64,000 bases of DNA. Origin: Asterias amurensis. Its lineage: Eukaryota > Echinodermata > Asteroidea > Forcipulatida > Asteriidae. Below are positions 33,041-61,135 of this stretch, one piece after another. Made by a program: the position numbers and the translations under genes. The stretch covers positions 1,426,001-1,490,000 of the forward strand of contig NC_092654.1 in the NCBI RefSeq assembly GCF_032118995.1, read 5' to 3'. The notes beneath the pieces were generated by a model. It saw only the letters and a program-made list of their open reading frames with translations, searched no databases and was not told the DNA's origin. Numbering within the stretch: the first letter of the stretch is position 1; each line of letters opens with the position of its first letter.

Positions 33041-36000
33041 TTAGGTATGGTAATACGCATCATGCCAGATCTCACCCGATCGCTTCAGAGACCTGAAAAA
33101 ATAAACACACATTTTTTTAATTGTTGTTGCATTTTGTAGCATTTCAGCCTTTGAGAAAGACTCTGCTAGTGTTGTAACATCAGGCCAATTAATTTTTTTG
33201 TTTGCATTTAGTGGTTTTTGTAACATACTGGAGTTGTTGGCTCCGCGCCCAACACCAAACCTGGTGGACCAAAAAGAAATAAGGCAGGCCAATGACTTCA
33301 TGAAGTCGAGCCGTAAGAACAAAGCTGGAAGAGATGGGGCATACAGACCCCATGCACAATGCGCAGCGAACTTACACATGCCTATCTTGTCCGCCATTTT
33401 TAGGGTCAAAATTGTGCACTAAGAAATTTACTCTCAAAATGATGGGAATGGTAGTCAAGTTTTCCTAGGAGTTGCGTTCCGCATTGTGAAAGGGGTCTAC
33501 ATAGGGTGAGGCAAAAGCCAAGAAACAAAACAAAAATCTGTAATTTGTGTGTATCGGCCTTATACACTGGAAAAAGCTCAAGAAAAGCAAATACTATACA
33601 CTGATTTCTTAAGAAAATTTCATCAACATGGACAATGATTACTTACCGCACGATGTCAGCAAAAGCACAAAACAGTGTTTTAGTTTGATACGGGAGTCCA
33701 TGTTTTCTACATAGAGCTTTGACGTCTGGCACTATTTTGTGAAAGTTGTGTCTCGGCATGGTGGGGAATAGGCTGAAAAAAGGACAAACGAAACATATAA
33801 AAAATTAGTAGGATTTGAAACTTTGCATGGTGGAAATAGGATATAGACAGGTTTGCGGGAACACCATAACGATAATCTCTAAATGAAATGGGGTGGTTCT
33901 GAGCGTTGGTTTCAACTCGCTTTTTCAATCAGTATGCTCTCAACGACTTCAGGAGAAAGCTGGACTATGATGCTGCACGCTGCAGCAAGTACTGATGATG
34001 CGGATTAGCTTGGTTTCCCATGCATCACAAGCTCCAGTTCCCTCATTCATGCATCACCAACAATCCAATCATACTATAGGTACCAATCAGATGACACTGG
34101 AAAAATGACGACAAAAGGGACAAAACCATCTTGTTGTAAGATGCATTTTTGTTTATAGTATGAAAAACTTACTGGTGTTCGATCTGGTAGTTCAGGTGCC
34201 CGGTGAACCAATCGTTAAAGAACGACGGATCTACATTGCAGGTAGCCTGTAGCTGCATTGGTAACCATTCCTTCTTATCGTCATAGTCAATCTTCATGGG
34301 TATATGGTTCATCTGAGTGACCCACACGAACCAATGACTCTCCATAAACCTGGAAATGAAAACATGCGAAAATAATTCAGAAAATTTACCAATGAGGTAT
34401 AGACAACCCGAGCTACTTCACAAAACCCCAAGATTCATCTTAAGACGGGTTGTCAGTATCGCCATAGTTGTTTGTATTGTGACATCACAGAACCTCACCC
34501 CTTCCCCCGAACCATACACCTTTCCTTTCTCCTAATAGACCCCCTTACTTTGATCACCCATCCCCCAATCAAACCATTCCCTCGCTCCCGTGATCATGCC
34601 CCTCCCTAGCTCATCCCTCCCCTAGCCCATACCCTTCCCCTTAATGATGCTCCCTGCCTACCCAGCAAACACGTAACGTCATCGTAACGTTACTGTGAAA
34701 TTGTATTTTGGTAATGTTGCTTCCCAACTAAAACACAACTAACCTACAACGTTGCCAAAAGGTTGCAGTTTGGTCTTGTTACACAATGACATAAATACAA
34801 CGTTATAAAAACGTTATGTTTTAACATCGTATAAAAAAGTCCTGTGAATATTGTTATGCAACGTTGTCAGAAGGTTTTGGTTTCGTCACGTTACTCCATA
34901 ACTTAGATACAACTTTTGTCTAACGTTTTTTAAACGTCATATACAAACGTTATGTGAATGTTCTGTCAAAACGTTATCTGAGAGTTGTGGCTTTGTGTTT
35001 TCACAACGTTTTAATAAAGTCACTTTAGCTTTGTTTGGCAACGTTGCTTGAATGTTGTACCTTCGTCAGGTTATTTGGCAACGTACAACTAACTTTGCAA
35101 CGACGTAGTTTTCATCGTCTGATAATGGGACGTTGTGGAAACTTGTTTTAACAAAGTTACCGAACAGTGTTTTGACAGTTCACTGGCATGTGTCGCACGA
35201 CGTGTATCCTCGGGGCACGTGGGCAACGTACATATATAACGTTGTATCAACGTTGTACCACGAGGCAGATGACCGCGGTCATGCAGAGATCCTCTACAAA
35301 ACGTTTTCAATAAAAAATAATATTTTTTTATTATAATATTATTTTATGGTAATATTTTACAAATAAAAAAAAATAAAGACATTCATATAGGTATTAGTAA
35401 AGAACAAAAAGATTAATAATAAAAAACTTCATACAATTATTAAAAAAGTAAATTCTCATATAAAGTACGAGGCTACAATCCGCGCGGAGGATTGTGGGGG
35501 ATTGTTCAAATGTTATGCTGCACTTCCGCCGTTCAACCGTCGTATTCTTCTCCTAGCCTGTACGTTACGCCGACCAAATTTACATCGGTTGTTAAGTTGT
35601 CATCTTCTCGACAATGGTAAGTATTCTACATACAAAAACTCACTTTATCTTATTGTGTTTTCCGTAAAAAAACAAGTATTTTCTTTGGTTATCACGATTG
35701 TCTGTATATGTCATCATTCATGTACGTCGTGTGTACATCTCCAGACAACAATACAATGAGACATTTTTACACATACAATGGCAGAGGTAGCTAGAATACG
35801 GCCAACCAATCTTCGTGTTTAGTCTTCCTCCGTGCTCTTTGACACCTGTTTACTGTGTATCCTTTGTCCCCGAGTAGAATAATTGTGAACCACAGATTTT
35901 TGATGAAAATTGACTGCTTTTCGACGCCATGATGTTTAATTTAATATATTATTATGCTTACTTATGAGGGCACAATTTGTGTGTGTTACTATTATTGTTC

Positions 36001-39000
36001 TTTCCACAAATCAGCTACGGTAAAAGGAAAAGTATTTAATCAATTTATATATATAATTAATATTGTTGAAGGAGTAATTAAGGGGTAACTGAAAGGAACC
36101 AACATTTTTTTTTTTCAGAAAGCATATATGGAATAGTGAAGCATGATTGATGCTTTTTTAATGTTGATTGATTTACCTTTTTTTAATGAAACGGCAGCAT
36201 TTAAAAAAAGATTTGTTGATCAATTACAGTTAATTTTGTTAGCTGAGACAAACAATATGTGGGTACTGGGTAGAAGGAATGAAAATGCTTAGTTTTACCA
36301 TTTCGAATGACCACCCCAATTACTTTATGTTTTTCTTAAAAATGTTTTTATTTTACTTTTAGGAGCTTGCTGAAAAAGTTAGAGGAGGCCATCTCATCTT
36401 CTTGACACCTAAAAATTTCCCCACAACAAAAGTTGGGCCCAAGTACAGGTGAGTGAATTACATGTGCATGATGTAGCTTTGTTTGTGAAATACTCTCAAT
36501 GGAAATGTTGGCAACGCCTATTATATTGTAAAAAAAAACTAGATAGCTTGAAGACAAAAGGTATTCACTATCCTATACAAAGATTAATGGAACATGTTTT
36601 CAGTCCATAGACATTTTGATATTGTGCAGGTACATATGGACAGTTATGTTCAGGGGTCGAAATTGCCACTAGCCCGCTAGCCCGGGACTACCAGATTTAC
36701 AGCCGGGCTACTCATTTTTCCAGCTTGATAGCCCGACGGGCTAGTGGAAAAATAATGCAAAAATCATCATCACAAACAATAAAGAACTATGTTATTGGTG
36801 TATTGTAAAGTTTGAGCCGTGACGCGGGACATAATGTGTCTTTCGGGCTACCAAAATCTAATCAGGGCTACTAAAAATTATTGGTCACTAGCCCTGCTGA
36901 CTACCATGGAAATACACTTAATTTCGACCCCTGTATGTTTCACGATGTATACATTAGAAAATAACAATGTCAAACTCGTTCTTGTTGACCCGACATGGAT
37001 GAACCGATATACATGTGTACATTGATAAAGGAAATACATGTACACATTTTGTGGGAAAGGTCAAAATGACTCAATTTTCTCTTTGTTTCACATTTTCTTT
37101 TACATTTAGGAACCTTGTTGAGGAATACCTACCTTTTCGGATGTGGTGACCCTTGGTGATTCTGACTAATCCATCGACAATTTTGCCGTGTACCACTTGC
37201 TGCCTGCTATCCTTTTTTCCCCAAACCCTTTTTAACATTTTATCTCAAAGCTGAGCTTTTGTTACTGATTTAAAAACGTAGATGCACTAAATGAAGAAAT
37301 TTAAACAAGAACAGTATTTAACATTATTCAATATGTTCAAAAAAGTTCTAAATTCAACATTCCTCCTCAACAACTTTGCCATTCACACTGGATTTTGCTC
37401 CATCCAAATGTAAAAAAACCAAAAACAATTTGTGTGGGTATTCATTAAAATGGCACTGTATTTTTACTTTTGAAATCTGAAGACAATTGGAACTGTGTTT
37501 AAAGTTAACTTTAAAAACGTTTGTTTTCAAAGGGTTGTTTATACATTTGGCAATAAAATTACCTGGTAAGAAACATTTTGAGAAACAGTTCACTTTGAAG
37601 TAATGTGGTTTTGGAAAAACATTTTGAAGCTGATGAGTGTTTCTGCCAGAAACGCTTCTCAGATTGGGTGTTCAAATTGCAGACTATATATTCTTCCCAC
37701 ATGAATTTTCACAGGTTAGTTTTATGGTACGATGTATCTACAACTAGATTTGAACAAGCAGTGAGTTTCAGTAACAATGGTATGGAACTTACTGTATGTG
37801 TATATAATATAATATATACATGTAGATAAATACAATAAAACTAACCCTCTGTGAATATTTCACTTCAAAAGATGTTTGTGTTTTGGAGATTTCACCGGGA
37901 AAAAACGGGGCGATTATTTCCACACAGGAAGAATATTTCTTAGATCTAAATTTTGGGGAATAAAAAGTGATCTGTTTTTTCTATAACCGGAGAACTTCGA
38001 AGTTAAACGTTTCTCAAAATGCATTACACTACCTACAGCTGCTGAACTTCTGACAATACAGTTGTTTTTTATTGCCTTGAATTTGTAGAGTCATTGCCAA
38101 ACGTATACAGACCATTTAACTGTAAATCTCCATCTTTGCCATTTTTATTATACAACGCATTTTGAGTTATATTTAACCATGCTTTAAAGTTTTGCAGTCT
38201 TTTCTATGAAATGATTTGTATGCAATTAAAGATGTTAAGAGAGCCAAAAGCACTTTTGGTATGCATGTGTCTTGATTTGTTGTGATAAATTTACATTTAT
38301 TTAAAGCATTTAATAACGTTTTTATAACGTTGGGTTTTTCCTGTTGATGACGTTATATAAATACGTCACAATCACGTTCAGAAATAACTTTATCAAAACG
38401 TGAAGATTTAACGTTTTCACAATGTTATTATATTACGTCATGACGCGACGTTATCTAGACGTTGACAAAACTCCACACTTATCCGTCCGTACAACGTTAA
38501 ATAAAAACGTTCTCCCAACATTCAAATAACGTCATAGCGACGTTCAGGGCACGTTATTATGTTTGCTGGGTAGCTCGCCCTAGCTCATCCCTCCCCCAAT
38601 CATACCCCTTACCTAGCTCGCCCTAGCCCATACCCTTCCCCTTAATGATGCTCCCTGCCTAGCTCGCCCTAGCTCATCCCTCCCCCAATCATACCCCTTA
38701 CCTAGCTCGCCCTAGCCCATACCCTTCCCCTTAATGATGCTCCCTGCCTAGCTCGCCCTAGCTCATCCCTCCCCCAATCATACCCCTTACCTTGCTGCCC
38801 TAGCCCATACCCTTCCCCTTAATGATGCTCCCTGCCTAGCTCGCCCTAGCTCATCCCTCCCCCAATCATACCCCTTACCTAGCTGCCCTAGCCCATACCC
38901 TTCCCCTTAATGATGCTCCCTGCCTAGCTCGCCCTAGCTCATCCCTCCCCCAATCATACCCCTTACCTAGCTCGCCCTAGCCCATACCCTTCCCCTTAAT

Positions 39001-42000
39001 GATGCTCCCTGCCTAGCTCGCCCTAGCTCATCCCTCCCCCAATCATACCCCTTACCTTGCTGCCCTAGCCCATACCCTTCCCCTTCATGATGCTCCCTGC
39101 CTAGCTCGCCCTAGCTCATCCCTCCCCCAATCATACCCCTTACCTTGCTGCCCTAGCCCATACCCTTCCCCTTAATGATGCTCCCTGCCTAGCTCGCCCT
39201 AGCTCATCCCTCCCCCAATCATACCCCTTACCTTGCTGCCCTAGCCCATACCCTTCCCCTTAATGATGCTCCCTGCCTAGCTCGCCCTAGCTCATCCCTC
39301 CCCCAATCATACCCCTTACCTAGCTCGCCCTAGCCCATACCCTTCCCCTTAATGATGCTCCCTGCCTAGCTCGCCCTAGCTCATCCCTCCCCCAATCATA
39401 CCCCTTACCTTGCTGCCCTAGCCCATACCCTTCCCCTTAATGATGCTCCCTGCCTAGCTCGCCCTAGCTCATCCCTCCCCCAATCATACCCCTTACCTAG
39501 CTCGCCCTAGCCCATACCCTTCCCCTTAATGATGCTCCCTGCCTAGCTCGCCCTAGCTCATCCCTCCCCCAATCATACCCCTTACCTTGCTGCCCTAGCC
39601 CATACCCTTCCCCTTAATGATGCTCCCTGCCTAGCTCGCCCTAGCTCATCCCTCCCCCAATCATACCCCTTACCTAGCTCGCCCTAGCCCATACCCTTCC
39701 CCTTAATGATGCTCCCTGCCTAGCTCGCCCTAGCTCATCCCTCCCCCAATCATACCCCTTACCTTGCTGCCCTAGCCCATACCCTTCCCCTTAATGATGC
39801 TCCCTGCCTAGCTCGCCCTAGCTCATCCCTCCCCCAATCATACCCCTTACCTAGCTCGCCCTAGCCCATACCCTTCCCCTTAATGATGCTCCCTGCCTAG
39901 CTCGCCCTAGCTCATCCCTCCCCCAATCATACCCCTTACCTTGCTGCCCTAGCCCATACCCTTCCCCTTCATGATGCTCCCTGCCTAGCTCGCCCTAGCT
40001 CATCCCTCCCCCAATCATACCCCTTACCTTGCTGCCCTAGCCCATACCCTTCCCCTTAATGATGCTCCCTGCCTAGCTCGCCCTAGCTCATCCCTCCCCC
40101 AATCATACCCCTTACCTTGCTGCCCTAGCCCATACCCTTCCCCTTAATGATGCTCCCTGCCTAGCTCGCCCTAGCTCATCCCTCCCCCAATCATACCCCT
40201 TACCTAGCTCGCCCTAGCCCATACCCTTCCCCTTAATGATGCTCCCTGCCTAGCTCGCCCTAGCTCATCCCTCCCCCAATCATACCCCTTACCTTGCTGC
40301 CCTAGCCCATACCCTTCCCCTTAATGATGCTCCCTGCCTAGCTCGCCCTAGCTCATCCCTCCCCCAATCATACCCCTTACCTAGCTCGCCCTAGCCCATA
40401 CCCTTCCCCTTAATGATGCTCCCTGCCTAGCTCGCCCTAGCTCATCCCTCCCCCAATCATACCCCTTACCTTGCTGCCCTAGCCCATACCCTTCCCCTTA
40501 ATGATGCTCCCTGCCTAGCTCGCCCTAGCTCATCCCTCCCCCAATCATACCCCTTACCTAGCTCGCCCTAGCCCATACCCTTCCCCTTAATGATGCTCCC
40601 TGCCTAGCTCGCCCTAGCTCATCCCTCCCCCAATCATACCCCTTACCTTGCTGCCCTAGCCCATACCCTTCCCCTTAATGATGCTCCCTGCCTAGCTCGC
40701 CCTAGCTCATCCCTCCCCCAATCATACCCCTTACCTAGCTCGCCCTAGCCCATACCCTTCCCCTTAATGATGCTCCCTGCCTAGCTCGCCCTAGCTCATC
40801 CCTCCCCCAATCATACCCCTTACCTAGCTCGCCCTAGCCCATACCCTTCCCCTTAATGATGCCCCCTGCCTAGCTCGCCCTAGCTCATCCCTCCCCCAAT
40901 CATACCCCTTACCTAGCTGCCCTAGCCCATACCCTTCCCCTTAATGATGCCCCCTGCCTAGCTCGCCCTAGCTCATCCCTCCCCCAATCATACCCCTTAC
41001 CTAGCTCGCCCTAGCCCATACCCTTCCCCTTAATGATGCTCCCTGCCTAGCTCGCCCTAGCTCATCCCTCCCCCAATCATACCCCTTACCTTGCTGCCCT
41101 AGCCCATACCCTTCCCCTTAATGATGCTCCCTGCCTAGCTCGCCCTAGCTCATCCCTCCCCCAATCATACCCCTTACCTAGCTCGCCCTAGCCCATACCC
41201 TTCCCCTTAATGATGCTCCCTGCCTAGCTCGCCCTAGCTCATCCCTCCCCCAATCATACCCCTTACCTAGCTCGCCCTAGCCCATACCCTTCCCCTTAAT
41301 GATGCCCCCTGCCTAGCTCGCCCTAGCTCATCCCTCCCCCAATCATACCCCTTACCTTGCTGCCCTAGCCCATACCCTTCCCCTTAATGATGCTCCCTGC
41401 CTAGCTCGCCCTAGCTCATCCCTCCCCCAATCATACCCCTTACCTTGCTGCCCTAGCCCATACCCTTCCCCTTAATGATGCTCCCTGCCTAGCTCGCCCT
41501 AGCTCATCCCTCCCCCAATCATACCCCTTACCTTGCTGCCCTAGCCCATACCCTTCCCCTTAATGATGCTCCCTGCCTAGCTCGCCCTAGCTCATCCCTC
41601 CCCCAATCATACCCCTTACCTTGCTGCCCTAGCCCATACCCTTCCCCTTAATGATGCTCCCTGCCTAGCTCGCCCTAGCTCATCCCTCCCCCAATCATAC
41701 CCCTTACCTTGCTGCCCTAGCCCATACCCTTCCCCTTAATGATGCTCCCTGCCTAGCTCGCCCTAGCTCATCCCTCCCCCAATCATACCCCTTACCTAGC
41801 TCGCCCTAGCCCATACCCTTCCCCTTAATGATGCTCCCTGCCTAGCTCGCCCTAGCTCATCCCTCCCCCAATCATACCCCTTACCTAGCTCGCCCTAGCC
41901 CATACCCTTCCCCTTAATGATGCCCCCTGCCTAGCTCGCCCTAGCTCATCCCTCCCCCAATCATACCCCTTACCTAGCTGCCCTAGCCCATACCCTTCCC

Positions 42001-45000
42001 CTTAATGATGCTCCCTGCCTAGCTCGCCCTAGCTCATCCCTCCCCCAATCATACCCCTTACCTTGCTGCCCTAGCCCATACCCTTCCCCTTAATGATGCT
42101 CCCTGCCTAGCTCGCCCTAGCTCATCCCTCCCCCAATCATACCCCTTACCTAGCTCGCCCTAGCCCATACCCTTCCCCTTAATGATGCTCCCTGCCTAGC
42201 TCGCCCTAGCTCATCCCTCCCCCAATCATACCCCTTACCTTGCTGCCCTAGCCCATACCCTTCCCCTTAATGATGCTCCCTGCCTAGCTCGCCCTAGCTC
42301 ATCCCTCCCCCAATCATACCCCTTACCTAGCTCGCCCTAGCCCATACCCTTCCCCTTAATGATGCTCCCTGCCTAGCTCGCCCTAGCTCATCCCTCCCCC
42401 AATCATACCCCTTACCTAGCTCGCCCTAGCCCATACCCTTCCCCTTAATGATGCTCCCTGCCTAGCTCGCCCTAGCTCATCCCTCCCCCAATCATACCCC
42501 TTACCTTGCTGCCCTAGCCCATACCCTTCCCCTTAATGATGCTCCCTGCCTAGCTCGCCCTAGCTCATCCCTCCCCCAATCATACCCCTTACCTAGCTCG
42601 CCCTAGCCCATACCCTTCCCCTTAATGATGCTCCCTGCCTAGCTCGCCCTAGCTCATCTAAGGTAATAGACCGATCCATTAAGCCCCGCCCCATTGCGTA
42701 TTGACCAATCACAACTCAACAAAGGTCCGACACTAAGGTCCGACATGCGTGTGCGTCTGCTTGGCGCGCGCGGCAGAGTTGTGCAGAAAGGCATTGGAGA
42801 GGCCCACGTGTTCTTGCTCACACATGCGTCGTGGGCGGAGCCTACTGGATCCGTCTATTGTAGAAACCAAATAAGACTATCACCAATTGTTGGACCCATT
42901 GCTTCAAGCTAAATTAGGCTTATCAAGAATATCATATCCATATGTTAATATAAAATTGGTGCAACCCTACTTTACAAATCATCTTTTTAAAAATCTCCAA
43001 AGCAGTTGGTCCCAATCCATTTTGACTAAAAATATAAGCACCTGACAAACAAGTAGAAAAAGAAAGCACCAGATACGCCTAAAAGTGGGCCAAAGGTCAC
43101 AAAGAGTTTGGTGAAAAAGAACACCATCCAGAAGACATCCTGAAAAGAGAAATACAAAAAAAACATTAAGTTTCGATGTTGAAACTATTCTAATTCTACT
43201 GTTTTTCTTTAGATACTTTTTTCCAGTTACATTAAAACTTGGAGTACGAGTGCAATATGACTGCATCACAATAACTGAATTGGGCATTGGGCCGTTGTTA
43301 AAAGTGTAGCAATTCCAACTTACGATCCAGACTTTCTTCCTCAGAATGTGCGAAGTGTATTCATAATGAAAGTACAGTGGTAGCAACAACGGTGGTAAAA
43401 CTGTCAGAAAAAGAAGGGAAAAAATGCAGTCATAAGAGTTAGACAGGATAACTTTATTTTGTTGACTTCACAATTGTTTAAATTATATAATGTAATAAAC
43501 CACAAGGAAACCCAACTGGTTAAATTTTAATCAAGTTTGGCTTGAACGAAGAAAGATTAACTAGAGTGGGGCTTGAGTCTGCGACCTCTGGATTAACGTG
43601 TTGGCGCTTAACCAACTGAGCTATCTAGCCCTAATATTGGCAAATCCTATTTTGTCTACTCTATATCTTTGTTTGGGGGTGCCAGGTGGGAAGCCATTCA
43701 ATCTGTGCCTCCTGAAGGTGATCTATCTCCTGCTGCTTCCCAAAGAGTCCACTCCTTAGCAAACTGTAGAGGGTACCCTATTACCAAGGAGGCAGTGAAT
43801 GGAACAACTTCCCTCCCAACCCAAATTCATCATCATCAAAGAAATTAGCAATAGAATAGAATTTGAGCAAAGAAATAGAATTTGAAAAAAGAAATAAAAA
43901 TTCAAAGTAGAAATACTTTCATCAACAGGCCTGATGTTTTATTTTTGAAAGACCAAGTGCACAAAGGCATTTTGCCCTTGATAAACGGCACCTCTATGAC
44001 ACAATTGTAAATTTCTATTGGAATATTTCAAAGGGCACCAAGGCGACCAGAGGCAATTGCCTCCGCCAAGTAACATGGCTGCATGACATTGAGCAAAAGG
44101 GTATATCAAAATGCAACTTACTGAAGAAGAAGTAGCTCTGTTGGTGATCATAAGGCATAAAACCTTTCTTCTTTTTGGCCCACTGAACGGGCTGCTTCTC
44201 ACCCAGCATGAATATATACTCCATCCTGATGTCTGGGTCCTTCATGATGATGTTGGGCTTAGCGTGGTGCTGGAAATGGCGGTAGTTCCACCAGTGAGCG
44301 GACGAGCCCTGAGGGGAAAACAATTAAATATTTCAGGTTTAAATGCTAGTATGATGAAGTTGGATTCATTTGAAATATTGGAAGCCGTTACTGAAAAGTT
44401 GCTGTAATATGAAGCTGAAATTATGAGTTATTATGTCGGAATTGTTTATTTATTATTCTCCTTTTTTAACCAATATGGAAATAAATGTTGATTGGATTGA
44501 AAACAAATTGGATTGAATGGGGGAGAGCTTGGAGAATTTTTAATATGATAAGAAAATATTGTAATCTTATTGTTTGAGTTGTCAGCTCCGAGATTTACAG
44601 GGCGTGTCAGCCAAGGCAGTCTAGCACATCGAATTCAAGCTGTGGTAGCCAAGTCAACACGATGTGGGTTGGAATCATGTTTTTATGAACTAAATCAAAT
44701 TGAAAATAATCTTTACCTTCATTCCACCAAGGATGAAGCCATGCAACGCATGATTCCAGCTGGACTTCTTAAAGACGGAAAGATGACCTAGGTCATGCTG
44801 AAACCATCCTGACTGACCCTATGGAAGAAATTTTCACAAATTGAAGTTTAAAAGACTGGTTGATAATTCCGCAACAAGTGGCCATTTAATACAAGGAATA
44901 GTTTTGAGAATTTCGTTTGCCATAATTATTTGTACTATTACTTTAGAATCACTAGAAAGCAAATATCTTTGTGTCAGTTTACAACGTTGTATCTCCATCT

Positions 45001-48000
45001 TGTAATAAAAATGTGTCTGGCTGCATCCAAAATCTTGGCACCTATAGAATTTTGTATGCACACCCCGGATATTTAAAATATTTTGTTCTGGCACTTTCAA
45101 ACTCTCATGTAGGCCTAGTGAAATTGTTTTTTTTCGGTGATAAGACATTGTTTCACTATGATTTATGTATAATAATAATAATAATATTGAGATTTTATAT
45201 AGCGCTTTTTCACTCCCTACGGGTGTCTCAAAGCACTTCAAGATATTACCCCTGGTCACTGGGCCTTAATTCACTCCTTAAACCATCTCAGCTCCCTGGG
45301 GAGTATACAGCATACAGCCTCGTGCAACAAATACGCTACTCGGCTAAATCAATCACAAGAACCATCTCTGCCCTCACAGGTACCCATTTACCCCTGGGTG
45401 GAGAGAAGCAATAATAGTTAAGTGTCTTGCTCAGGGACACAAGTGTCACGACCCGGATTCGAACTCACACTCTGCTGAACAGAATCAGCAGAGCTTGAAT
45501 TCGGAGCTCTTAACCGCTCGGCCACGACACCCCATCAGAGCACATCTTCTTAAAGCCTTTTGGCAAAACCACTTGCTCTGAGCACAGACAAATATTGCTT
45601 AACAGAAACTGGTTACCAGCCAAAATTCCATAAAGTTTGCAACTGGTGCACTACTAAAGAAATTTGCTAAGCATTGCTTTAACAGCTTTATGAAAGTGGG
45701 CCCAGATGTGATGAGACATTATTTTGAAGAAAAACAAATTTCAGACAAAATATTTCACGTACCTGAACTACAAGAAGTAAAAATGCAGAAGTGAGGTAAG
45801 GGAGCCAGCCAGTACCGAAGTACCACATGACAAACCAACCGAGAACATCAAGGGCAAGAATGTGACCGAGATGAGCTGCGTAGAACCAGAGATTGGGTTT
45901 CAAGAGGTTTAGCTGCTCCACCTTGCTCCGAAGGTTCCTCATGTCTGTGACAATGGAGCTCTGGAAATAAAAACCGATAGAGGCAAAATCAATGGGGAAC
46001 TTTTGAGACGTTGGTGTCAGCAGACATAACGCTCCTTTTTTGCAGCTCTGAACATCCCGGCAAAGGTCCGAGCATGTGCACTATTGGCGATAGACTGTGA
46101 AAAATCCTTGTACCTCGCATTACACAAAATTGGACAAATTCGCAATCTTCTTGACAAATCCACCACGGAAAAACTGGTTCACGCCTTCATTACATCCCGC
46201 CTTGATTTTTGTAATAGTCTTTTTCTCGGTCTACCTGACACCGGAATCTCCAAACTTCAGCGAGTTCAGAACTCAGCAGCCAGATTGGTCACACGATCCA
46301 AAACCTGTGACCACATTTCACCTATTTTCTCGGACTTGCACTGGCTTCCGGTTAGACAACGGATTGCTTACAAAACCCTTCTTCTGACATACAGCTGTAT
46401 CCATGGCCACGCACCTACATACTTGCAAGAACTTGTTCACAAATACCAGCCTTCTCGAAATCTCCGCTCTCAATCACAATCTCTACTTGCCTGTTCATCC
46501 GCTTCTACTAAGTCTTACGGCCAGCGTGCATTTTCTACGTCTTCTCCTACTCTTTGGAACAAACTCCCCCGCAACATCAAAGACGCTAAAACTCTGGATA
46601 AATTCAAACGCCTTCTCAAAACTCACTTGTTAAACTCCAACTAGTTTTGTCTGTTTTTTTCTTTCTGACTTTGCACAGCGCATTGGGACTCCGTGTGTAA
46701 TGCGCTTTAAAAGAACGGTTTATTATTATTATTATTATTAAAAAGGACCATCCAAAAATCTCTTATTAAATAGCAATTGCCTCATTTTTAGGATAAGGCC
46801 ACTTTGGACTTAACAAATGAATATTTAAAGGCCGACTAGGGCATGAGAAAGGGCACCACGGCCAACTGGGGTCTCCAAAAAAGGACCAATCATTTGAAAC
46901 CATTTAACTAATTAATAACAAATAAATTATAATAGATGTTAAATTTGCAGCAGTGATAATAAATATTAATTTTGGTTTTTACCCATACACTGATGTGTGT
47001 TAGCACTGTATGCTCAGTACTTTCCCAAGTCCTGTGAAAAAAATATCACAGGCATGTTACTCAGGTGGGATTCAAACCCACGACCCTTGCAATTCTAGAG
47101 CAGTGTCTTACCAACTAGACTACCGAGGTTGCCTGGCAGCTAGAGGCAGTTCGAATCCTATGTTTTGGCAGCGGGTACCGCAAGAAATTTGGGACGAAGT
47201 TCGACGAGATTGGTTTTTCTACCTTTGGTTTGTTGTCTTTCTCCAAAGATCCAATGCAAAGTGGTTTCAAATACTTGGTAACAAGTTCCTTATCTGGATG
47301 AAAAGCCACAAAGGCATCCTGCAAATCAAAGAAAATAAAACTTTAAAACCTTCAGAGAGCCTATTAGACCCAAGTATATATCTTACATTGTATGTGTACT
47401 ATAAGCAAGACATGTGTGAGACACAATAAACCAAGCAAGCATCAAAGCAACAGCTCTTTTAGAACTCAAGACATTAGCAACAAACTTTAAAGTCAGTGGA
47501 CACTATTGGTAATTACTCAAAATAATTATTAGCATAACACCTTTCTTGGTGACGAGTAATGGGGAGAGGTTGGTGGTATAAAACATTGTGAGAAACAGCT
47601 CCCTCTGAAGTGCCAAAGTTTTCGAGAAAGAAGTAATTTTCCATGAATTTGATTTCGAGACCTCAGGTTTAGAACTTGAGGTCTCAAAATCAACCATCTA
47701 AACGCACACAACTTCGTGTGACAAGGGTGTTTTCTTCTTTCACTATTATCTCGCAACTTTGATGACCGATTGAGCTCAAATTTTCACAGGTTGGTTATTT
47801 TATGCATATGTTGAGATACACCAAGTGAGAAGACTGGTCTTGGACAATTACCAATAGTGTCCACTGTCTTTAAAGCGTATGGAGGTCCATAGCAACAAAC
47901 TTTAAGGGTCAGATTGTGTGCTTGCCTTCCAACCCTAAGAACCCTGGTTTGAATCCTGTTGGAGGCACTATGTGGATTGGGTTTTCAAACCCTATCCCTA

Positions 48001-48903
48001 GATTAATTCATTTGGGTTCTCCTCCCACATCTAAAACTCAAACTTTGACTTCTCTCTAAGGGGTTTTCTAGTACAGTTATGAAATTCCCTTATCTGTGAG
48101 TCATTTGCTTCACAACCAGAATTAAGAAAATAAATAGTAACCAAATATGACATTTCTCACGGACAAATTTCTCAACAGACTGTAACTGCACAAATTATTG
48201 CAGCCTTTAAGGCTTAAAAACGTCACCACCCACTTTTCCCTCTTCCATCGCCCAAAGAAAGATGCCCCAAGAAACTCACCGTTGCATCCTCCCCAGCATA
48301 ATGAGACAGAACCTTGAACCCTCCTGGGTGTCTAGTCACCCACTTTGACACGTCATAAGCCCCATTCTCAATCACCACCCACTTGTCCCCCTTCACCAAC
48401 ACCCTAAGAAACTCACCGTTGCATCCTCCCCAGCATAGTGAGACAGAACCTTGAACCCTCCTGGGTGTCTAGTCACCCACTTTGAGACGTCATAAACCCC
48501 ATTCTCAATCACCAACCACTTGTCCCTCTTCACCAACACCCTAAGAAACTCACCGTTGCATCCTCCCCAGCATAGTGAGACAGAACCTTGAACCCTCCTG
48601 GGTGTCTAGTCACCCACTTTGAGACGTCATAAACCCCATTCTCAATCACAAACCACTTGTCCCTCTTCACTAACACCCCAAGAAACTCACCGTTGCATCC
48701 TCCCCAGCATAATGAGACAGAACCTTGAACCCTCCTGGGTGTCTAGTCACCCACTTTGAGACGTCATAAACCCCATTCTCAATCACCACCCACTTGTCCG
48801 TCTTACTGCTGTGCTCCTTCACTTCATCCCAGGTATAGGTGTTCTTTTTGCTGACCTGGGCTGAACTCTGACCCTGCTGACCTTTACCCATGTTTCCATC
48901 CAA
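33041..48903 (-). CDS. FADS2-like: Front-end fatty-acid desaturase (Fads2-like), downstream tandem copy A, 441 aa
   Basis: Coding exons (transcription order): 48691-48903, 47223-47318, 45763-45960, 44717-44818, 44122-44308, 43324-43400, 43042-43139, 34173-34349, 33647-33772, 33041-33092; total 1,326 bp, open and in phase. This is an ER-membrane acyl-CoA desaturase that inserts a double bond between the carboxyl end and an existing bond in polyunsaturated fatty acids. The N-terminal cytochrome b5 domain has the haem motif HPGG (residues 55-58). The three di-iron histidine boxes are intact: HDLGH (177-181), HFQHH (214-218) and QIEHH (379-383), the last with the Gln typical of front-end desaturases. 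Human FADS2 has 444 aa. The region that separates delta-6/delta-5 from delta-4 fish enzymes reads FHYE, not YxxN, so delta-4 activity is unlikely; true regioselectivity cannot be read here. An acceptor just upstream of the ATG implies a 5' noncoding exon. Introns carry a LINE fragment, a satellite and a 3.9-kb transposon. Confidence 0.95.
33808..33965. repeat. Partial copy of the 58407-type fold-back
   Basis: It matches the left arm of the 58407 element (ggatttgaaactttgcatgg, taatctctaaatgaaatggg) and the centre (tatgctctcaacgacttcag); the right arm is missing. It lies 35 bp upstream of desaturase A exon 9 in transcription direction. Confidence 0.6.
34480..34660. repeat. Degenerate left edge of the 89-bp satellite
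   Basis: C-rich sequence with recognisable but diverged satellite pieces (catcccccaatcaaacc, ctagctcatccctcc, ttccccttaatgatgctcc) runs up to the left end of the transposon. Array homogeneity drops here, as expected at an array border. It shows that the transposon inserted inside the array's first clean unit. Confidence 0.8.
35614..37149 (+). CDS. Putative three-exon 42-aa mini-gene inside a DNA transposon
   Basis: Not recognised. The predicted coding parts are 35614-35616 (ATG directly before a gtaagt donor), 36363-36448 (acceptor tttttacttttag, donor gtgagt) and 37110-37149 (acceptor tacatttag, ending TGA). They join in phase to a 42-residue product starting [15 protein letters not shown] and ending YLPFRMW. 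An in-frame TAA lies 21 bases before the ATG. If the other reading frame of exon 1 is used, splicing produces an early stop (TGA) within exon 2. The model rests only on three good splice signals and frame agreement. It lies wholly inside the 34661-38570 element, on the strand opposite the host desaturase. It could be a captured host gene fragment, a remnant of the element's own gene, or chance. Confidence 0.3.
36651..36933. mobile_element. hAT-like MITE nested in the 3.9-kb transposon
   Basis: The ends CAGGGGTCGAAATT and AATTTCGACCCCTG form inverted repeats of the CAGGGG type common in hAT elements. Flanks share TATGTT, probably a worn target duplication. The interior repeats 'gggcta' and 'agcccg' motifs in inverted orientation. 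It has no coding capacity. Confidence 0.75.
38571..42657. repeat. 89-bp satellite array, about 46 units, in desaturase A intron 7
   Basis: A highly homogeneous C-rich tandem array has a unit of 88-89 bp. It contains tagctcgccctagctcat, cctcccccaatcatacccc and ttccccttaatgatgctcc. Units differ mainly in one segment: tagctcgccc (89 bp), ttgctgccc (88 bp) or tagctgccc. Long stretches alternate the first two types (for example 39320-40735), and other stretches repeat the second type, so amplification also acted on two-unit blocks. The array is strongly strand-asymmetric, C-rich on the plus strand and therefore G-rich in the desaturase pre-mRNA. Confidence 0.97.
42664..42862. mobile_element. GC-rich MITE at the right border of the satellite
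   Basis: Ends read AATAGACCGATCCATTAAGC and, on the other strand, AATAGACGGATCCAGTAGGC, an imperfect inverted repeat continuing into CCCCGCCC. Length is about 200 bp. The body is GC-rich, unlike the surrounding intron. No target duplication is clear. Confidence 0.55.
43562..43700 (-). mobile_element. tRNA-Asn-like SINE
   Basis: Reverse orientation: gtctgcgacctctggattaa, cgtgttggcgcttaacca and actgagctatctagccct. Further upstream ctttgtttgggggtgccagg is shared with the 60241 copy, marking extra family sequence beyond the tRNA part. Confidence 0.68.
44597..44682 (+). mobile_element. Diverged SINE head fragment
   Basis: ggcgtgtcagccaaggcagt, acatcgaattcaagctgtgg and gatgtgggttggaatcatg align with the SINE head. 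It lies 35 bp from desaturase A exon 4. Confidence 0.45.
45170..45535 (-). mobile_element. tRNA-derived SINE, (ATT)n tail
   Basis: Reverse orientation: (ATA)n tail at 45171-45186, then tatagcgctttttcactccc, and the head ctcggccacgacacccc ending near 45535. It lies in intron 3 of desaturase A, in that gene's sense orientation. Confidence 0.86.
45590..45703. mobile_element. 'aatttcat' fold-back element, partial
   Basis: The right arm agctttatgaaagtgggccc and internal aactggttaccagccaaaat are present; the left end is missing. It borders a SINE in intron 3 of desaturase A. Confidence 0.6.
46030..46741 (+). mobile_element. 5'-truncated LINE (L2/CR1-like) 3' end
   Basis: An open frame at 46084-46644 encodes the C-terminal part of a non-LTR retrotransposon ORF2. 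Recognisable stretches are [46 protein letters not shown] and [10 protein letters not shown]. These form the conserved region after the reverse transcriptase palm in L2/CR1-type elements. The endonuclease and catalytic RT motifs are missing, so the copy is a dead 5' truncation. The 3' UTR ends in GCGCTTTAAAAGAACGG followed by (TTA)n. It lies in intron 2 of desaturase A, opposite to that gene's transcription. The left boundary is approximate. Confidence 0.85.
46983..47160 (-). mobile_element. tRNA-derived SINE, third family
   Basis: Reverse orientation: tgctcagtactttcccaagt, gtgggattcaaacccacgac and ccaactagactaccgaggtt. It directly follows desaturase A exon 2, in sense orientation, starting ~60 bp after that exon's donor. 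Confidence 0.72.
47491..47869. mobile_element. TTAA fold-back element, family 2 (379 bp)
   Basis: The termini AGTCAGTGGACACTATTGG and ccaatagtgtccactgtct are inverted and flanked by TTAA. Internal inverted arms include gaggtctcaaaatca and tttgatttcgagacctc. It lies in intron 1 of desaturase A. Confidence 0.88.
48271..48690 (-). repeat. Three partial copies of the cytochrome b5 exon with splice donors (copy A)
   Basis: Immediately downstream of desaturase A exon 1 (48691-48903), the last ~109 exon bases plus ~28 intron bases recur as a tandem unit of exactly 137 bp. Donor-side exon ends fall at 48691, 48554, 48417 and 48280. Each copy keeps an open frame encoding [17 protein letters not shown] then HPGG and HYAGEDAT, followed by an intact GTGAGT. 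The residue after DKW varies: V, F, L and V. Gaps between a donor and the next copy are only ~28 bases, too short to be introns, and read-through meets a stop (TAG or TGA). The copies are therefore either decoy donors or minisatellite by-products. Confidence 0.9.
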
Positions 48904-54005: not shown

Positions 54006-57000
54006 CTAGGTGTGGTGGTAGGCGTCATACCAAAGCTGACCAGAACTCTTGAGGGAGCTGCAATTAAAAACACACACACAAATTGTTTAAATATAAAGGT
54101 GCAGAAAAATTGAATGTCCTTCTAAAATGGTTTTCACTCGTTTCTCCTACTGTGCGAGTGCTCAACACAAAATGTACTTAACAAAGAGTGTTCAAAATCA
54201 CTGTCATAGTAGAATAGTTTGACAAAGTGTATTGCAAGTGCAGGCCTATATTTCATCAACAATTAGTATGGTATAGGTATCTAGTGATGATTTATAATAA
54301 TAACAACTACTACTTATATAGCCAGTTTTTACAATAATGTATCAGTGAGCTTTATATATGTCCTTGTCATTGTGCCAAAAACATTGCTCTTATCTTTTTC
54401 AGCTCCCTGGGGATTATACAGCCCGAGCTGCCGTGGCACTCTAAAGACTTTTTCATACACAATATCAACCTCTACCCTTAGAGGTAACCTCTACCCTTAG
54501 AGGTACCATAGATTTTAACAATGTATCCCTGACTTCAGGCCTTCAGGGAACCTCAGGTACTCACCGCACAATATCAGTAAAGGCACCGAGTAATGTCTTA
54601 GTCTGGTAGCTGAGACCATGTTTGATACACAGGGACTTGACATGGGGTGCTATCTTTGCGTAGTTGTGTCTGGGCATGGTGGGGAAGAGACTGAAACCAA
54701 AAATAGACAAAATAGAGAGTTATTACAACACAAATCCCCTACAAGTGTTGTTATGATTTAAAACAAATAAAAGAGAAGGTTTTTTAAATTATAGGATTTG
54801 AGGCATTGCATGGTGAGGTATCAATATATATTTGGTTTGCGGTAACACCGTGTGTGTATCTACTTGCCAGGTAGAGTTTGTTCTTAGAGAACTGTCTAGC
54901 TTAATTCTACTACCGCGGAGTAGATTGTTCGGGTGTTCGGGAGACCTCCAGTTCTGAAAAGAATTGCCCTGCTTATTAACTATTACCTGGGCGGATGGTA
55001 ATTAGTCTCCTGACGATGACTAGAGCAAGCTAGTCGAAACGTTGAGACCAACCCAAGAACTGACTCCACGGTAGTACAGTTAATTACGATCCTATAAGCT
55101 AAAGTAGTAGTCCCAGCCTATTTCTTTACCATCCACCCAGGTAATAGTTAATAAGCAGGACAGTTCTTTTCAGAACTTAGTAGTCTCCCGAACACCCAAA
55201 CAATCTACTATGCGGTAGTAGAATTAAGCAAGACAGTTCTCTAAGAACAAACTCTACCTGGCAAGAAGATACACACATGGTGTTACCACAAACCAAATAT
55301 ATATTGTTTTTTAAATTATCATCCATATGAGAAAATGGGGGGAAAAAAAAGTCCCTACACATACACACACAGGGTGCCAGACTATATTTCCTTCCAGCCT
55401 CAGTTTGGTTACACTGAAAGAGAAATAAGATGGAGGCAGTGAAGTTTTATATCTTACTGGTGCTCAATCTGGAAGTTGAGATGTCCGGTGAACCAATCGT
55501 TGAAAGCGGAGGGTTCGACGTTGCAGGTGGCGTGTAGCTGCAGAGACAGCCAGTCTTTCTGGGTATCATTGTCTACCTCCATGGGTATATGGTTCATCTG
55601 GGTCACCCACACGAACCAATGACTCTCAAGAAACCTGGAAGGTTGGGGGAAAACAATCTATCAATCAACCAGATGATAATTATAATAATAACAATTAATA
55701 ATTTGGGAGGCTAATCATCCTTACTCACAGCTAAGAGCTGAATTGCAAAGTTTGAGAAGCACGCATGCAAGGGCGCCTTTGACAGCCAGCCACATCAAGC
55801 CATTATGACCACGGAGCACAGCCAGAGATCGAAAAGGGAGGAAAACCGAATGGTCTGGAAAACCCTTGTGGCACAGCAGAGAACCAACGCACAACTCAAC
55901 TCACATGGCCCTGGCCGGGTATTGAACCAGGGTCACCTGGAAATATTAATTCCATTCTGGAATAAAACATTACATTTTTCTTTTAGACAAGACTTTAGAC
56001 TTACCTCACAAACATATAAAGACCAAGTGCACCGAGTCCACCAAGGAGGGGTCCATAAAAGTAGAACCAACGCACAAAGAAGAAAACAGTCCATGCAAGA
56101 TCCTTAGGAGGAAATAGAAAGACAAAATGTTTAGTTATAAGAAAAATGAAATACAGAAATATCAATACACAGGAAAGATTTTGATTGGATTTGAATCGGT
56201 TTCGTAGGAAACATTCCATCGCAACCAAAGGTCGAATTCTGAAATCTTTAACAATAGTTATCAGCCAATACAAAATCAAATTCAAGAAAGCAAATCAATA
56301 AGCATAAAGTCTCAACAGCATGCTTACAGAGAAAAATTAGAAAAAAGAAGAGGGTCTACGTTTTCAACAGATGCTCTTAGAGTCTAGGAATACTGTTTAG
56401 CAGACGAACTAAATAAAGGACTGTGCTCTTCTTGTAGCGCTCTGTTTTGCAGCAAACTGAAGTGTACCTTAAACTATTGCACAGTAGTGTTCGGTGGAAA
56501 TCTGGTCTAGTTGGAGGAAGCCAGTCACTTGCATGAGCCTTTCCTCATGCCAAAGCAAGGGGGGGGGGCCATGACACTTCTTTTAATTTTCTCAACCCTT
56601 TTTCTCCTTTGTTTGGTAAAAGTTGTTCAGTTTATTGCTTTTACTTACCGTCCATATTCTTTTAGTGATTACGTGATACAGGTTCTCGGTGTGAAAGTAG
56701 ATGGGTAGCAGGAGGGGCGGACCAACTGTCATCAAAACAAAAAATTACATAAATAAATGTTTTATTTTATTTTTATAATTCTCTTGCAACTTCAAGGACC
56801 AAGTGAGTAAAAATGTCCTCATATTTGTTATTTTATGCATATAAGTTGGGATACACCAAGTGAGAATACTTGACTTTGACAATTACCAAAAGTGTCCAGT
56901 GTCTTTAAGCATAAGGCTTGAACTGTAAATAGTTTATCTTGTTAAAAACTTTGTGACTTACTCAGGAAGAAATATCCCTGCTGGTAGTTATACGGCATAA

Positions 57001-60000
57001 AACCTCTCTTCTGAGAGGCCCATTTTATCGGCATCTTCTCCCCAAACAGAAAGAGGTACGGCATCGTGATGTCTGGATCCTTCTTGACAATGTTAGGTTT
57101 AGCGTGGTGCTGGAAATGGCGGTAGTTCCACCAGTGAGCTGAAGCTGCCTGCAAAATAGAAAAAAAAATAAGTTTGTTCCAGTCAAGGGAATTTAGCAAA
57201 CGCCCATTCTCCTTGCTAAAGGGCACCCTATGAGGAAATTGTAAATTTCAAGGGCACCAAGGCAATGACCAGGGGCATAGAGGCAATCGCCTTTGTTGCC
57301 TCCGTGAAGTATCAGGCCTGGGGATATAAATGTCAAGCTTGCAACAACCTTTCTCTTTCATAAAAAACATTGGGTTAACGCCTATATGATTATGAGTTGC
57401 ATAAATATTTTTTTTTAATTTAGTAACTAGACGACAAGACTTTTCTAGTCATTGTGAAATCAGCGGTTAGCTTGATAGGATTCAAACCTACAGCCTTGTG
57501 ATTGCAAGTCCTGCAGTCTAACCATTGGGCCACATTTTGTAACCGTTCAACAATTTTCAAAAAGGATATTTCTTTGTCTAGGTTAGGTTGTTTTATTTGA
57601 TACTACTGATCAAGATAGTAAAATAGTAAAATAGCCTCCACCTTACCAGAAACCATAACCACAGGGATTGGGGTATTGGGGTCAGTGTTGCAGAATGGTG
57701 ATTGGATTGGGGGTTTAGTCTGGTGTCCAGAAAGGGCAGCAGGGATTAGGGATGGTACATGAGCTGAGGACGGTGTTAGACCTAGGGTCAAGTGTTATGA
57801 GGGTTCAGTTTCATGGATTGACAATTTTTTTAAGTCAATGAACCAATGCCTTGCTGATGCCTGTGACTTACTTTTAATCCTCCGATGACAAAGTTATGAA
57901 GCCAGTGATTCCAGCGAGATTGGCTAAAGACGGACAAGTGCCCCAAGTCATGCTGAAACCATCCGGATTGGGCCTAAAAATAAGTACCAAAGAAAAGTGT
58001 TGAGTGAAACGGATTTACAACCATCACTTTATTCTCAACCAAAAAATCCCCGAAGGTGATCATTGTCTGGTCCCCTATATGCAATTAAGAGTCATACATG
58101 TCGATATTGATACACAAAAGGTGGACCAGACTATTTTGCCTTCGAGCCTCAGTTTGGTGATTTTAGACCTTTCTATTGCAACTTCCCGGCCCAAGTTCTT
58201 TGCCAACCAAAGTTTAAAACTTTGGAAAGCCATAAAACAAAAAACCAGATAGTTACTGTTTGTAACAATGTTATACAAATATTCAAACATAGTGTTGAAA
58301 TCATGGGAGGTATTAAATTTCACTGAAAGTTTGCAGAAAACATTGAATTTGGTTAAAATATCAGTTAATATGATTAGTAAGTACGATTTGAAACTTTGCA
58401 TGGTGGAAATACGACATGGAAAGGTTTAAGGTGACACCATGTAATGACTATCTCTAAATAAATTGGGGTAGCTTTGATCAGTTTGCTCTGAACGCCTTCT
58501 TTCTCCAGAAGACGATCAGAGCATACTGATCAAAACGTCGAGTTGAATTAACCAACGGTTGTTTTCAGAACCACCCCAACTCATTAGAGATAGTGATTAC
58601 ATGGTGTTACCACAAACCTTTCCATAACATGATTAGTGTTTTACTAACACTCGGTCGTCTATGAAAAAACCAGCTCGGTTTGTTTATTAACAAAAAACGC
58701 TTTCTCTGTTATCTCAAACATACCTGTGAAGTTGTGAGAATTGCAGCGGCTAGTAAATAAGGTGACCATCCTGTTCCGTAGAACCATAGCACCATCCATC
58801 CAAGGACCTCTAGAGCAAGGATGTGGGCTAGGTGAGCAGCGTAGAACCCCATCCTTGGTTTAAAGAGACCCATCTCCTCAGCCTGGGTGCGGAGACTGCG
58901 CATGTCACTTACTATTTCACTCTGAAACAGAACACAGACTATATTAGTATTGTCTTGTCTTTTTCAATCCACTGCAGGAGGAAAGCCTCTTCACCAATTC
59001 TCCATCTCACTCTATCCTGCGCTGTCTGTTGCCAAGCAGGTCATCTGGGCCCAATTTCAAGAGCTGCTTAAAGGCAGTGGACACTATTGGTCATTACTCA
59101 AAATAATTATTAGCACAAAACCTTACTTGGTAACGAGTAATGGGGAGAGGTTGATAGTATAAAACATTGAGAGAAACGGCTCCCTCTGAAGTGGCGTAGC
59201 TTTCGAGAAAGAAGTAATTTTCATCAAATTTGATTTTGAGACCTCAGATTTAGAACTTGAGGTCTCGAAATCAAGCATCTGAAAGCACACAACTTCTTGT
59301 GACAAGGGTGTTTTTTCTTTCATTATTATCTCGCAACGTCGACCACCAATTAAGCTCAAATTTTCAAAGGTTTGTTTTTTTATGCATATGTTGAGATACA
59401 CCAAGTGAGAAGACTGGTCTTTGACAATTACCGATAGTGTCCACTGTCTTTAAGCGCCAAAGTAGCTCAGCACAACGAATTATAATACCAGAAACCAGCT
59501 AAACTACCATGTCACGTGTACAATTTGTGACTGGTATCATGCTCAATTCTGTTAAGCAGAAACATCTTAAGCAGTATCAAGGAGACAATTTGAAACAAAC
59601 CTTGGTTGATGACTCCGGGGACAGAAACCCGATACGAAGAGGCTTCAGGTACTTCTTGACTTTAGTCTTGTCTGGATGGAAGGCCACAAAAGCATCCTGG
59701 CGTGACAAAATGACAAAAAGTTATGAAACAATTATTGAAAACTCCTATCGAACGCCCCTACAATTCCCACGAACAAGGTTGCATTTTTCCCTCTTCACTA
59801 ACACCCTAAGAAACTCACCGTTGCATCCTCCCCAGCATAATGAGACAGAACCTTGAACCCTCCTGGGTGTCTAGTCACCCACTTTGAGACGTCATAAACC
59901 CCATTCTCAACCACAAACCACTTGTCCCTCTTCACTAACACCCTAAGAAACTCACCGTTGCATCCTCCCCAGCATAGTGAGACAGAACCTTGAACCCTCC

Positions 60001-60156
60001 TGGGTGTCTAGTCACCCACTTTGAGACGTCATAAACCCCATTCTCAATCACCACCCACTTGTCTGTCTTACTGCTGTGTTCCTTCACATCATCCCAGGAG
60101 TAGGTGTCATCTAAGTTGACCTGAGTTGAACTCTGACCTTGCTGACCTTTACCCAT
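54006..60156 (-). CDS. FADS2-like: Front-end fatty-acid desaturase (Fads2-like), upstream tandem copy B, 437 aa
   Basis: Coding exons (transcription order): 59956-60156, 59601-59696, 58724-58921, 57872-57973, 56962-57148, 56649-56725, 56005-56102, 55458-55634, 54565-54690, 54006-54057; total 1,314 bp. Exons 2-10 have exactly the lengths of copy A, with the same phases; only exon 1 differs (201 against 213 bp). HPGG is at residues 51-54, HDLGH at 173-177, HFQHH at 210-214 and QIEHH at 375-379, so the electron-donor domain and di-iron centre look intact. The last exon is small and encodes [16 protein letters not shown] then stop. The regiospecificity segment reads FHTE against FHYE in copy A, a plausible site of functional divergence. 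Outside the cytochrome b5 exon the paralogues differ at many residues. The cytochrome b5 exon itself is nearly identical, which suggests gene conversion or shared minisatellite dynamics. The start ATG lies after an acceptor near 60188, so a 5' noncoding exon lies upstream. Confidence 0.95.
54290..54455 (-). mobile_element. SINE tail fragment
   Basis: The tail part (ataataacaactactactta, tatagcc) and cagctccctggggattatac are recognisable; the tRNA head is lost. Confidence 0.5.
54820..55305. mobile_element. Long fold-back element with hammerhead-like centre
   Basis: The left arm (tttggtttgcggtaacacc, tctacttgccaggtagag) and right arm are near-complete inverted copies over ~150-190 bp each. The central ~140 bp contains CTGACGA, a 6-bp stem and GAAACG at 55010-55041, enclosed by GTCTC/GAGAC. 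It lies in desaturase B intron 8, between exons 8 and 9. Confidence 0.8.
55738..55935 (-). repeat. Interspersed repeat shared with 21240-21490
   Basis: agccagccacatcaagcc, gaaaagggaggaaaaccgaa and gagaaccaacgcacaactca match, with substitutions, the complement of 21240-21490. It lies in intron 7 of desaturase B, between exons 7 and 8, near exon 7. Confidence 0.5.
56778..56904. mobile_element. TTAA fold-back element, family 2, right half
   Basis: Right-arm sequence (tgcatataagttgggatac, accaaaagtgtccagtgtct) ends at TTAA; the left arm is missing. It lies in an intron of desaturase B between exons 5 and 6. Confidence 0.7.
57470..57533 (-). mobile_element. tRNA-like SINE head, fourth type
   Basis: The complement reads tggcccaatggttagactgc and gtaggtttgaatcctatc, a tRNA A and B box spaced as in a tRNA. 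There is no full cloverleaf or terminator, so it is called as a repeat head. Confidence 0.45.
58407..58630. mobile_element. Fold-back element related to the 54820 element
   Basis: The arms gaaaggtttaaggtgacacc and ggtgttaccacaaaccttt share the 'ggtgttacc...aaacc' terminus with the 54820 element. The centre has the related motif cagaagacgatcagagcat. It lies in intron 3 of desaturase B. Confidence 0.72.
59072..59449. mobile_element. TTAA fold-back element, family 2, inserted in another fold-back
   Basis: 378 bp, about 90% like the 47491 copy by eye, flanked by TTAA. The flanks (cccaatttcaagagctgc on the left, gcgccaaagtagctcagc on the right) belong to the aatttcat family, so this is a nested insertion at its GCTTAAGC motif. 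It lies in intron 2 of desaturase B. Confidence 0.87.
59801..59955 (-). repeat. One partial copy of the cytochrome b5 exon with splice donor (copy B)
   Basis: The same 137-bp unit seen in desaturase A occurs once after exon 1 of desaturase B: exon ends with GTGAGT lie at 59956 (true exon) and 59819 (partial copy). The partial copy is nearly identical to those of gene A, including HPGG and the TTAGGGTGTTAGTGAAGAG intron portion. A further very short remnant appears to follow near 59776-59800. Either the repeat began before the gene duplication or the units have been exchanged between genes. Confidence 0.88.
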
Positions 60157-60239
60157 CGTGCTGTATTGAATCCACTCAGCTCATCATATCTAAAATTAAC
60201 AATGGAATTACACAGTTATTCATAAGGTGTGAACAAAGA

Positions 60240-60370
60240 CAAATTTACCGCAGCGAAACTTGAACCAATGACCTCTAGATTAACATACGGGTGCTCTACC
60301 AACTGAGCTATCCAGCCCTATGTTAGCAGTCTCCCTATTTTCAACAACTTTGTTTGGGGTTGCACGTCAT
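60240..60370 (-). mobile_element. tRNA-Asn-like SINE
   Basis: Reverse orientation: cagcgaaacttgaaccaatg, acctctagattaacatacgg and actgagctatccagccctat. It lies about 85 bp upstream of the desaturase B start codon, close to where 5' UTR splicing should occur. Confidence 0.68.
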
Positions 60371-60967
60371 CCAACCTGTAATTGCTATAGAAATAGGGAT
60401 CGTTCAAGTTCAAGTTTTACGATACAACAGGGAAGTGGCAATAGAGGGGTCACCTTAAGGGGATGTAACTTTTTATTTCAAATATCAAGGAACAAACCAG
60501 GGTCTGATTTCATGAGCTGCTAAGAAGATAATATTGCTTACAATTTCCCTCTGTGCAACATTAAGTAAAAAACAGTCACAAATTAGTCTTTTGACTGGTA
60601 CTCGTTTTTTTTTTAGTGAAATTGTTTTGATCTTAGTTATTTCAGGGGTTTTAAGGCTGTGTAATGTTTTGGCCAGAGGGAAATTTATTTTGTTCAACAC
60701 TTGCCTGTTTCCTGTTCACAGGAAACCAAATCTACTGTACCGAGTTTTCCATAATGCCTGGACACAACAAAGTTACACACTGTTGAACAACGATCTTCTA
60801 AAACCCCATTCAATGAGGAAATAGATTATGAAAATACGACTGAACTACACAGGATGTATAACATGGTCCATAGGACTCAGGTTACCCACTAACCTTTACA
60901 CTCTGCAGTAAACGGTAAAAATAGATGCTCGGTACCCTGATTTCAAACAACATAAATTAACAAAAGT

Positions 60968-61135
60968 AACTGCACGTGCACGCCCAAGCTTTATTAACTG
61001 CACGTGCACGCCCAAGCTTTATTAACTGCACGTGCACGCCCAAGCTTTATTAACTGCACGTGCACGCCCAAGCTTTATTAACTGCACGTGCACGCCCAAG
61101 CTTTATTAACTGCACGTGCACGCCCAAGCTTTATA
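60968..61135. repeat. 28-bp E-box minisatellite, six units, upstream of desaturase B
   Basis: Six exact copies of a 28-bp unit (starting at 60968, 60996, 61024, 61052, 61080 and 61108) each contain TGCACGTGCA with a CACGTG E-box, then cgcccaagctttatt. The array lies ~810-980 bp upstream of the start codon. CACGTG binds bHLH(-Zip) factors such as USF, MYC or SREBP-type proteins; a regulatory role is only possible, not shown. Confidence 0.9.

Follow-up and report, generated by a model that had tools for sequence, protein, structure and literature searches.

A tandem repeat with a 137-nt unit spans the boundary between exon 1 and intron 1 of a predicted desaturase gene (gene A), setting four copies of its first 5' splice site in a row, and the same unit recurs in a neighboring paralog (gene B) and in a desaturase pseudogene (locus C). 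In our best reading, the array is a mostly passenger tandem repeat of splice donors, similar to that of human IFI6, with some unproductive splicing possible. We give a probability of roughly two-thirds to tandem duplication of the 137-nt segment at this boundary, followed by changes in unit number and conversion between loci, with donor 1 acting as the main donor and the other units being mostly passengers.

The window, i.e. the whole 64,000-nt stretch of DNA analyzed (bases 1426001–1490000 of contig C7), carries genes A (33041–48891) and B (54006–60156), both on the minus strand, each with 10 exons encoding 437 aa. Their exon lengths in the gene models were identical (201, 96, 198, 102, 187, 77, 98, 177, 126 and 52 nt), and the two proteins share 310 of 437 residues. 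Intron 1 is 1372 nt long in A and 259 nt in B. Exon 1 of A (48691–48891, minus strand, ATG at 48891) ends with the 109 nt that form the exon part of the first repeat unit, and exon 2 (47223–47318, minus strand) completes the b5 domain. Front-end desaturases are built from a Cyt-b5 and an FA_desaturase domain. Profile searches matched both Pfam domains (PF00173 and PF00487) well above their cut-offs in A and B, with Cyt-b5 at the N-terminus, and the His boxes HDLGH, HFQHH and QIEHH were found by eye in the two translations. Both thus appear to be intact front-end fatty-acid desaturase genes, with the activity predicted from these features. Echinoderm front-end desaturases have been described as FadsA/B/C (PMC11750391); A and B resemble them in sharing the Cyt-b5 plus FA_desaturase make-up, and the word intron does not occur in the main text of that report.

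Tandem Repeats Finder (TRF) placed the array of gene A at 48265–48804 (period 137, 3.9 copies, 96% matches, no indels, score 996). Each repeat unit corresponds to 109 nt from the end of exon 1 followed by 28 nt of intron 1, and the four units follow each other on the minus strand at an exact spacing of 137 nt. Unit A1 (48663–48799, donor after 48691) contains the genuine exon end, and A2 (48526–48662, donor after 48554), A3 (48389–48525, donor after 48417) and A4 (48280–48388, donor after 48280) lie within intron 1. Behind A4 is a diverged tail, which stays open to 48223. In the six pairwise comparisons among the A units, 104–108 of the 109 exon-derived positions were alike. All four donors of A read ACGGTGAGT, and the six units of A and B all retain ACG/GTGAGTTTCTT, with the same score of 9.95 bits in a 9-nt model. 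Each of the three gaps between units in A is 28 nt long and contains a stop that is in frame with the unit before it. TRF and the unit alignment thus bear out the original prediction that the end of exon 1 and the start of the intron, including the donor, are repeated four times at an exact 137-nt period. Its statements that the gaps are too short for spliced introns, that the donors are near-identical, and that every copy keeps the coding frame and HPGG (4 of 4 in A) also held. It had covered gene A; the presence of the array in B and C and the signature of gene conversion described below are additions to it.

The two copies in gene B were found by TRF at 59788–60063 (minus strand): B1 (59928–60064, donor after 59956) comprises the end of B exon 1 and 28 nt of intron, and B2 (59791–59927, donor after 59819) lies within B intron 1. 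Locus C (C7:412069-413909), a B-like truncated desaturase pseudogene on the strand opposite to A and B, is located ~1 Mb from the window and consists of an exon 1 with an early stop, a deletion, and then parts of exons 8 to 10 (exon 10 identified by eye). Compared with B, its upstream flank and 5' exon part are identical at 196/215 positions and its exon 9 at 122/126. It also contains two copies of the unit (C7:412192-412441), the second of which (C2) is degenerate, with a stop, loss of the HPGG histidine and one base change immediately in front of the donor. Locus C may have been functional during part of its history. A search with the unit across the genome (491,506,623 bases in 23 contigs) gave at least nine matches, at the three loci A, B and C. 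An assembly artefact is an unlikely source of the array, because the copies bear differing diagnostic bases and the repeat was found at three loci. The PacBio HiFi reads of the A. amurensis assembly average 12.5 kb (PMC10625585) and, if they underlie the present sequence, would cover the 0.54-kb array in full. Another desaturase-like exon 1, the fourth and a more distant one (locus D, 47% identity over the match), lies on the other strand ~16 kb before the window and appears to stop at the residue homologous to the end of A and B exon 1; a search for direct repeats of at least 25 nt across it found none. A genome search with exon 8 gave five matches, which correspond to A, B, C and two at one place assigned to D by position. 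The search with exons 1–2 also returned weak b5-like matches on contigs C1 and C3, and further desaturase genes may exist in the genome.

Frame analysis showed that donor 1 alone among the four donors of A gives the full 437-aa desaturase. Every downstream donor (2–4 in A, 2 in B) yields a product of 73 aa ending in VSFLGC, with the stop located 116, 253 and 390 nt before the junction for A donors 2, 3 and 4, respectively, and 116 nt before it for B donor 2. The original prediction that every donor past the first reads into a stop was therefore correct, and the product size it gave (~77 aa) needed revision. Use of donor 4 retains three further units in frame (3 × 137 = 411 nt, divisible by 3); this candidate for in-frame read-through was rejected, as the stop in the first gap still yields 73 aa. 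Nonsense-mediated decay (NMD) usually takes effect when the stop lies 50–55 nt or more before a junction. With stops 116–390 nt before it, the transcripts from donors 2–4 are expected to be NMD targets. No AG inside the arrays scored above 0 in an acceptor model built from the 18 acceptors of A and B themselves, and the sole AG scoring above 0 in the scanned stretches was at 48180, beyond array A. This model is weak, since in leave-one-out scoring with its 18 sites one real acceptor received -2.8 and another 0.3, and a weak acceptor inside the array may exist for that reason. The downstream units are intronic copies with intact donors and no recognizable acceptor. We infer that donor 1 is the main donor in use; as the cap-proximal donor, it could be helped by U1 recruitment through the cap-binding complex. 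In classical experiments with duplicated donors the one closest to the acceptor was often favored, and this rule would favor donor 4. Use of donors 2–4 would produce the 73-aa fragment from an NMD-prone mRNA, at most a drain on desaturase output and no source of soluble cytochrome b5.

Regulated unproductive splicing, in which donors 2–4 compete with donor 1 and a variable share of transcripts is lost to NMD, thereby setting the output of A versus B, is possible but in our judgment doubtful. It draws on the four identical donors in A and two in B, on the stop 116–390 nt before the junction reached from every non-first donor, and on human IFI6, which is reported to use downstream units as donors (PMC4526556). 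Against it, the intronic units have amino-acid changes and show no sign of constraint, with changes too few for a test, and the identity of the donors can be explained by conversion alone. The exon copies A1, B1 and C1 differ at only two positions over 109 nt, both silent; among the intronic copies A2, A3, A4 and B2, four variable columns are residue-changing and two are not, a pattern that, in these small numbers, fits neutral drift. The proposal that the downstream donors switch the gene from desaturase to free soluble cytochrome b5 was not supported by the comparison with the domain. The open frame does run through HPGG into a short tail ended by a stop, and the 73-aa fragment still matches the Cyt-b5 profile at 70.7 bits, but it covers positions 1–52 of 74, compared to 1–73 for exons 1 and 2 together. 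Cytochrome b5 holds its haem by two histidines; in the desaturase b5 domain we take these to be His51, in HPGG, and the exon 2-encoded His74, in FHP. When this domain was aligned to the solved b5 chain 4b8n_A, His74 stood opposite a histidine, and in the other two of the three alignments shown a histidine stood opposite the residue before or after it, such that the position of the second haem histidine fell in exon 2 in 3/3. A free b5 has a complete domain with two axial haem histidines; the 73-aa product ends before His74, the next native histidine, and exon 2 encodes both this expected second ligand and the last part of the domain. The truncated fragment is probably incapable of holding haem, and its source mRNAs are NMD-prone. 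We therefore consider the switch highly improbable, and the array would not matter for cytochrome b5 supply. Equally remote is the use of the units as alternative, mutually exclusive exons, spliced from unit to unit across one or more units. The open frame of A2–A4, with single-residue differences (V to F, L or A), would suit such a use, but the gaps measure 28 nt, no in-array AG exceeds 0 in the weak model, and an extra unit would add a second half-domain or shift the frame.

The near-identity of the units points to conversion as the other component of our preferred reading. A and B differ at 2 of 109 positions in the unit compared to 362 of 1113 in exons 2–10 (Fisher p 4e-15), and at 0 of 18 compared to 60 of 93 four-fold sites (p 1e-7). 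Synonymous divergence between the paralogs is thus locally reduced, as is characteristic of gene conversion. Along exon 1, successive stretches differed at 1/30, 10/28, 2/34 and 2/109 positions, followed by 37/96 in exon 2, which marks out an identity island reaching from around base 58 of exon 1 into the array. All 109-nt windows outside exon 1 had at least 19 A–B differences, and none of 20000 codon shuffles contained any window with two or fewer. C1 and B1 are alike at 108/109 positions, although the flank and 5' exon part of C differ from those of B at 19/215 (p 0.003). In a nearest-unit test with eight units, A1, B1, B2, C1 and C2 each had their closest match solely in another gene, A3 was tied, and A2 and A4 were nearest to their own gene. 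This is the pattern expected for interlocus conversion combined with exchange inside arrays, and exchange within the array may also be acting because A2 and A4 are nearest to own-gene units. Since A and B resemble each other far more closely in the units than in exons 2–10, gene conversion has probably spread or homogenized the cassette among the loci; the pattern is what the comparison displays, and the process is deduced from it. Conversion between the linked paralogs would leave the exon 1 ends and units near-identical while about a third of the other coding bases differ. Strong selection on the sequence, for protein and splicing together, is a quite unlikely cause of this near-identity. 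The unit does encode the HPGG core of the b5 domain, but against selection stand the contrast at four-fold sites, the intronic copies, which resemble each other between A and B about as closely as the exonic copies do, and the broken paralog C, which shares the unit despite its diverged flank. A bolder version, in which a mobile splice-donor cassette has been copied by conversion among desaturases and its unit number (4 versus 2) determines the amount of each gene's pre-mRNA that is lost through unproductive splicing, seems to us unlikely; if true, the array would be a copy-number dial on desaturase output, able to vary among individuals.

The ends of the array suggest how it may have arisen. 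A 22-nt stretch at its upstream edge within exon 1 (48783–48804, minus strand) matches, at 20/22 positions, a direct repeat in the intron just past A4 (48223–48244, minus strand), its likely recombination partner or a remnant of a fifth unit. Of 3000 randomly drawn stretches, 61 overlapped the arrays and were removed; none of the remaining 2939 attained this score. The simplest origin suggested by these features is an exchange between the two short direct repeats: unequal exchange or slippage between the 22-nt imperfect repeats would have duplicated the 137-nt segment across the exon 1–intron 1 boundary, and the unit number would later have changed, to 4 in A, 2 in B and 2 in pseudogene C. The intron copy sits at the expected start of a fifth unit, except for 12 extra nt in the tail, and it could be a remnant of such a unit and not the cause of the array. 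The tails behind A4 and B2 have GGGAAAA in common at a site where the inner junctions of the three arrays (A, B and C) have GGGACAA, which speaks for original intron sequence and against a lost fifth unit. The duplication either preceded the split of A and B and was followed by conversion, or arose later in one gene and was then transferred.

Human IFI6 carries a minisatellite with repeat units of about 12 bp. This minisatellite is reported to provide multiple donors, with two downstream units used and three mRNAs arising (PMC4526556). The desaturase array is likewise built from donor-bearing units: they lie in tandem, each with a 5' splice site, and overlap the end of an exon. IFI6 has many short units, and its downstream donors are reportedly used; the desaturase array has few 137-nt units, which encode a half-domain, use of its downstream donors would truncate the protein, and it is common to paralogs. 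New relative to IFI6 are thus the larger unit, the coding half-domain, the first donor alone being productive, and the sharing among paralogs, probably by conversion. Internal tandem duplications that copy splice signals along with exon sequence have been described in ATP2A1 and potato RdRp (PMC4974935). As in this type of intron gain, splice signals were duplicated here together with exon sequence; unlike it, the desaturase array copies the donor only. Intron gain calls for a duplicate that supplies both GT and AG, and with 28-nt gaps and no acceptor above 0 (weak 18-site model) no new intron is expected; the copies remain part of the existing one. Interlocus gene conversion between paralogs typically appears as local near-identity within diverged genes. 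The tract described here is unlike the usual case in that it holds a tandem array across a splice site and reaches a pseudogene ~1 Mb away. A literature search found no report of this array among the titles and abstract openings listed. When 5' splice sites compete, the cell selects among them, and natural genes in which several identical donors follow one another are useful for testing this selection. The apparently intact paralogs A and B form a natural series: A has four donors and B two, their exon 1 ends are nearly the same, and intron 1 measures 1372 nt in A and 259 nt in B. The array also has the look of a repeat that carries a splice site and moves among genes by conversion.

RNA structure predicted for 48250–48891 was less stable than that of shuffled sequences (z 2.27; 20/20 shuffles folded at least as well). 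An Rfam scan of the window at gathering scores gave three tRNA hits and none within the array; one of the hits (47057–47129) lies in gene A intron 2. Several other repeats were observed in and around the two genes. In gene A, the long intron that separates exons 7 and 8 contains an 88-bp minisatellite (38571–42658, 46 copies, 98% matches) that is strongly C-rich on the plus strand. Copies of what appears by eye to be one dispersed element are present in A intron 1 (47490–47874) and B intron 2 (59060–59450). Just upstream of B exon 1 is a dispersed repeat (60227–60300) with at least 37 further matches, tRNA-like by eye and without an Rfam hit, and a 28-bp repeat in six identical copies (60967–61134) is located ~0.8 kb upstream of gene B.
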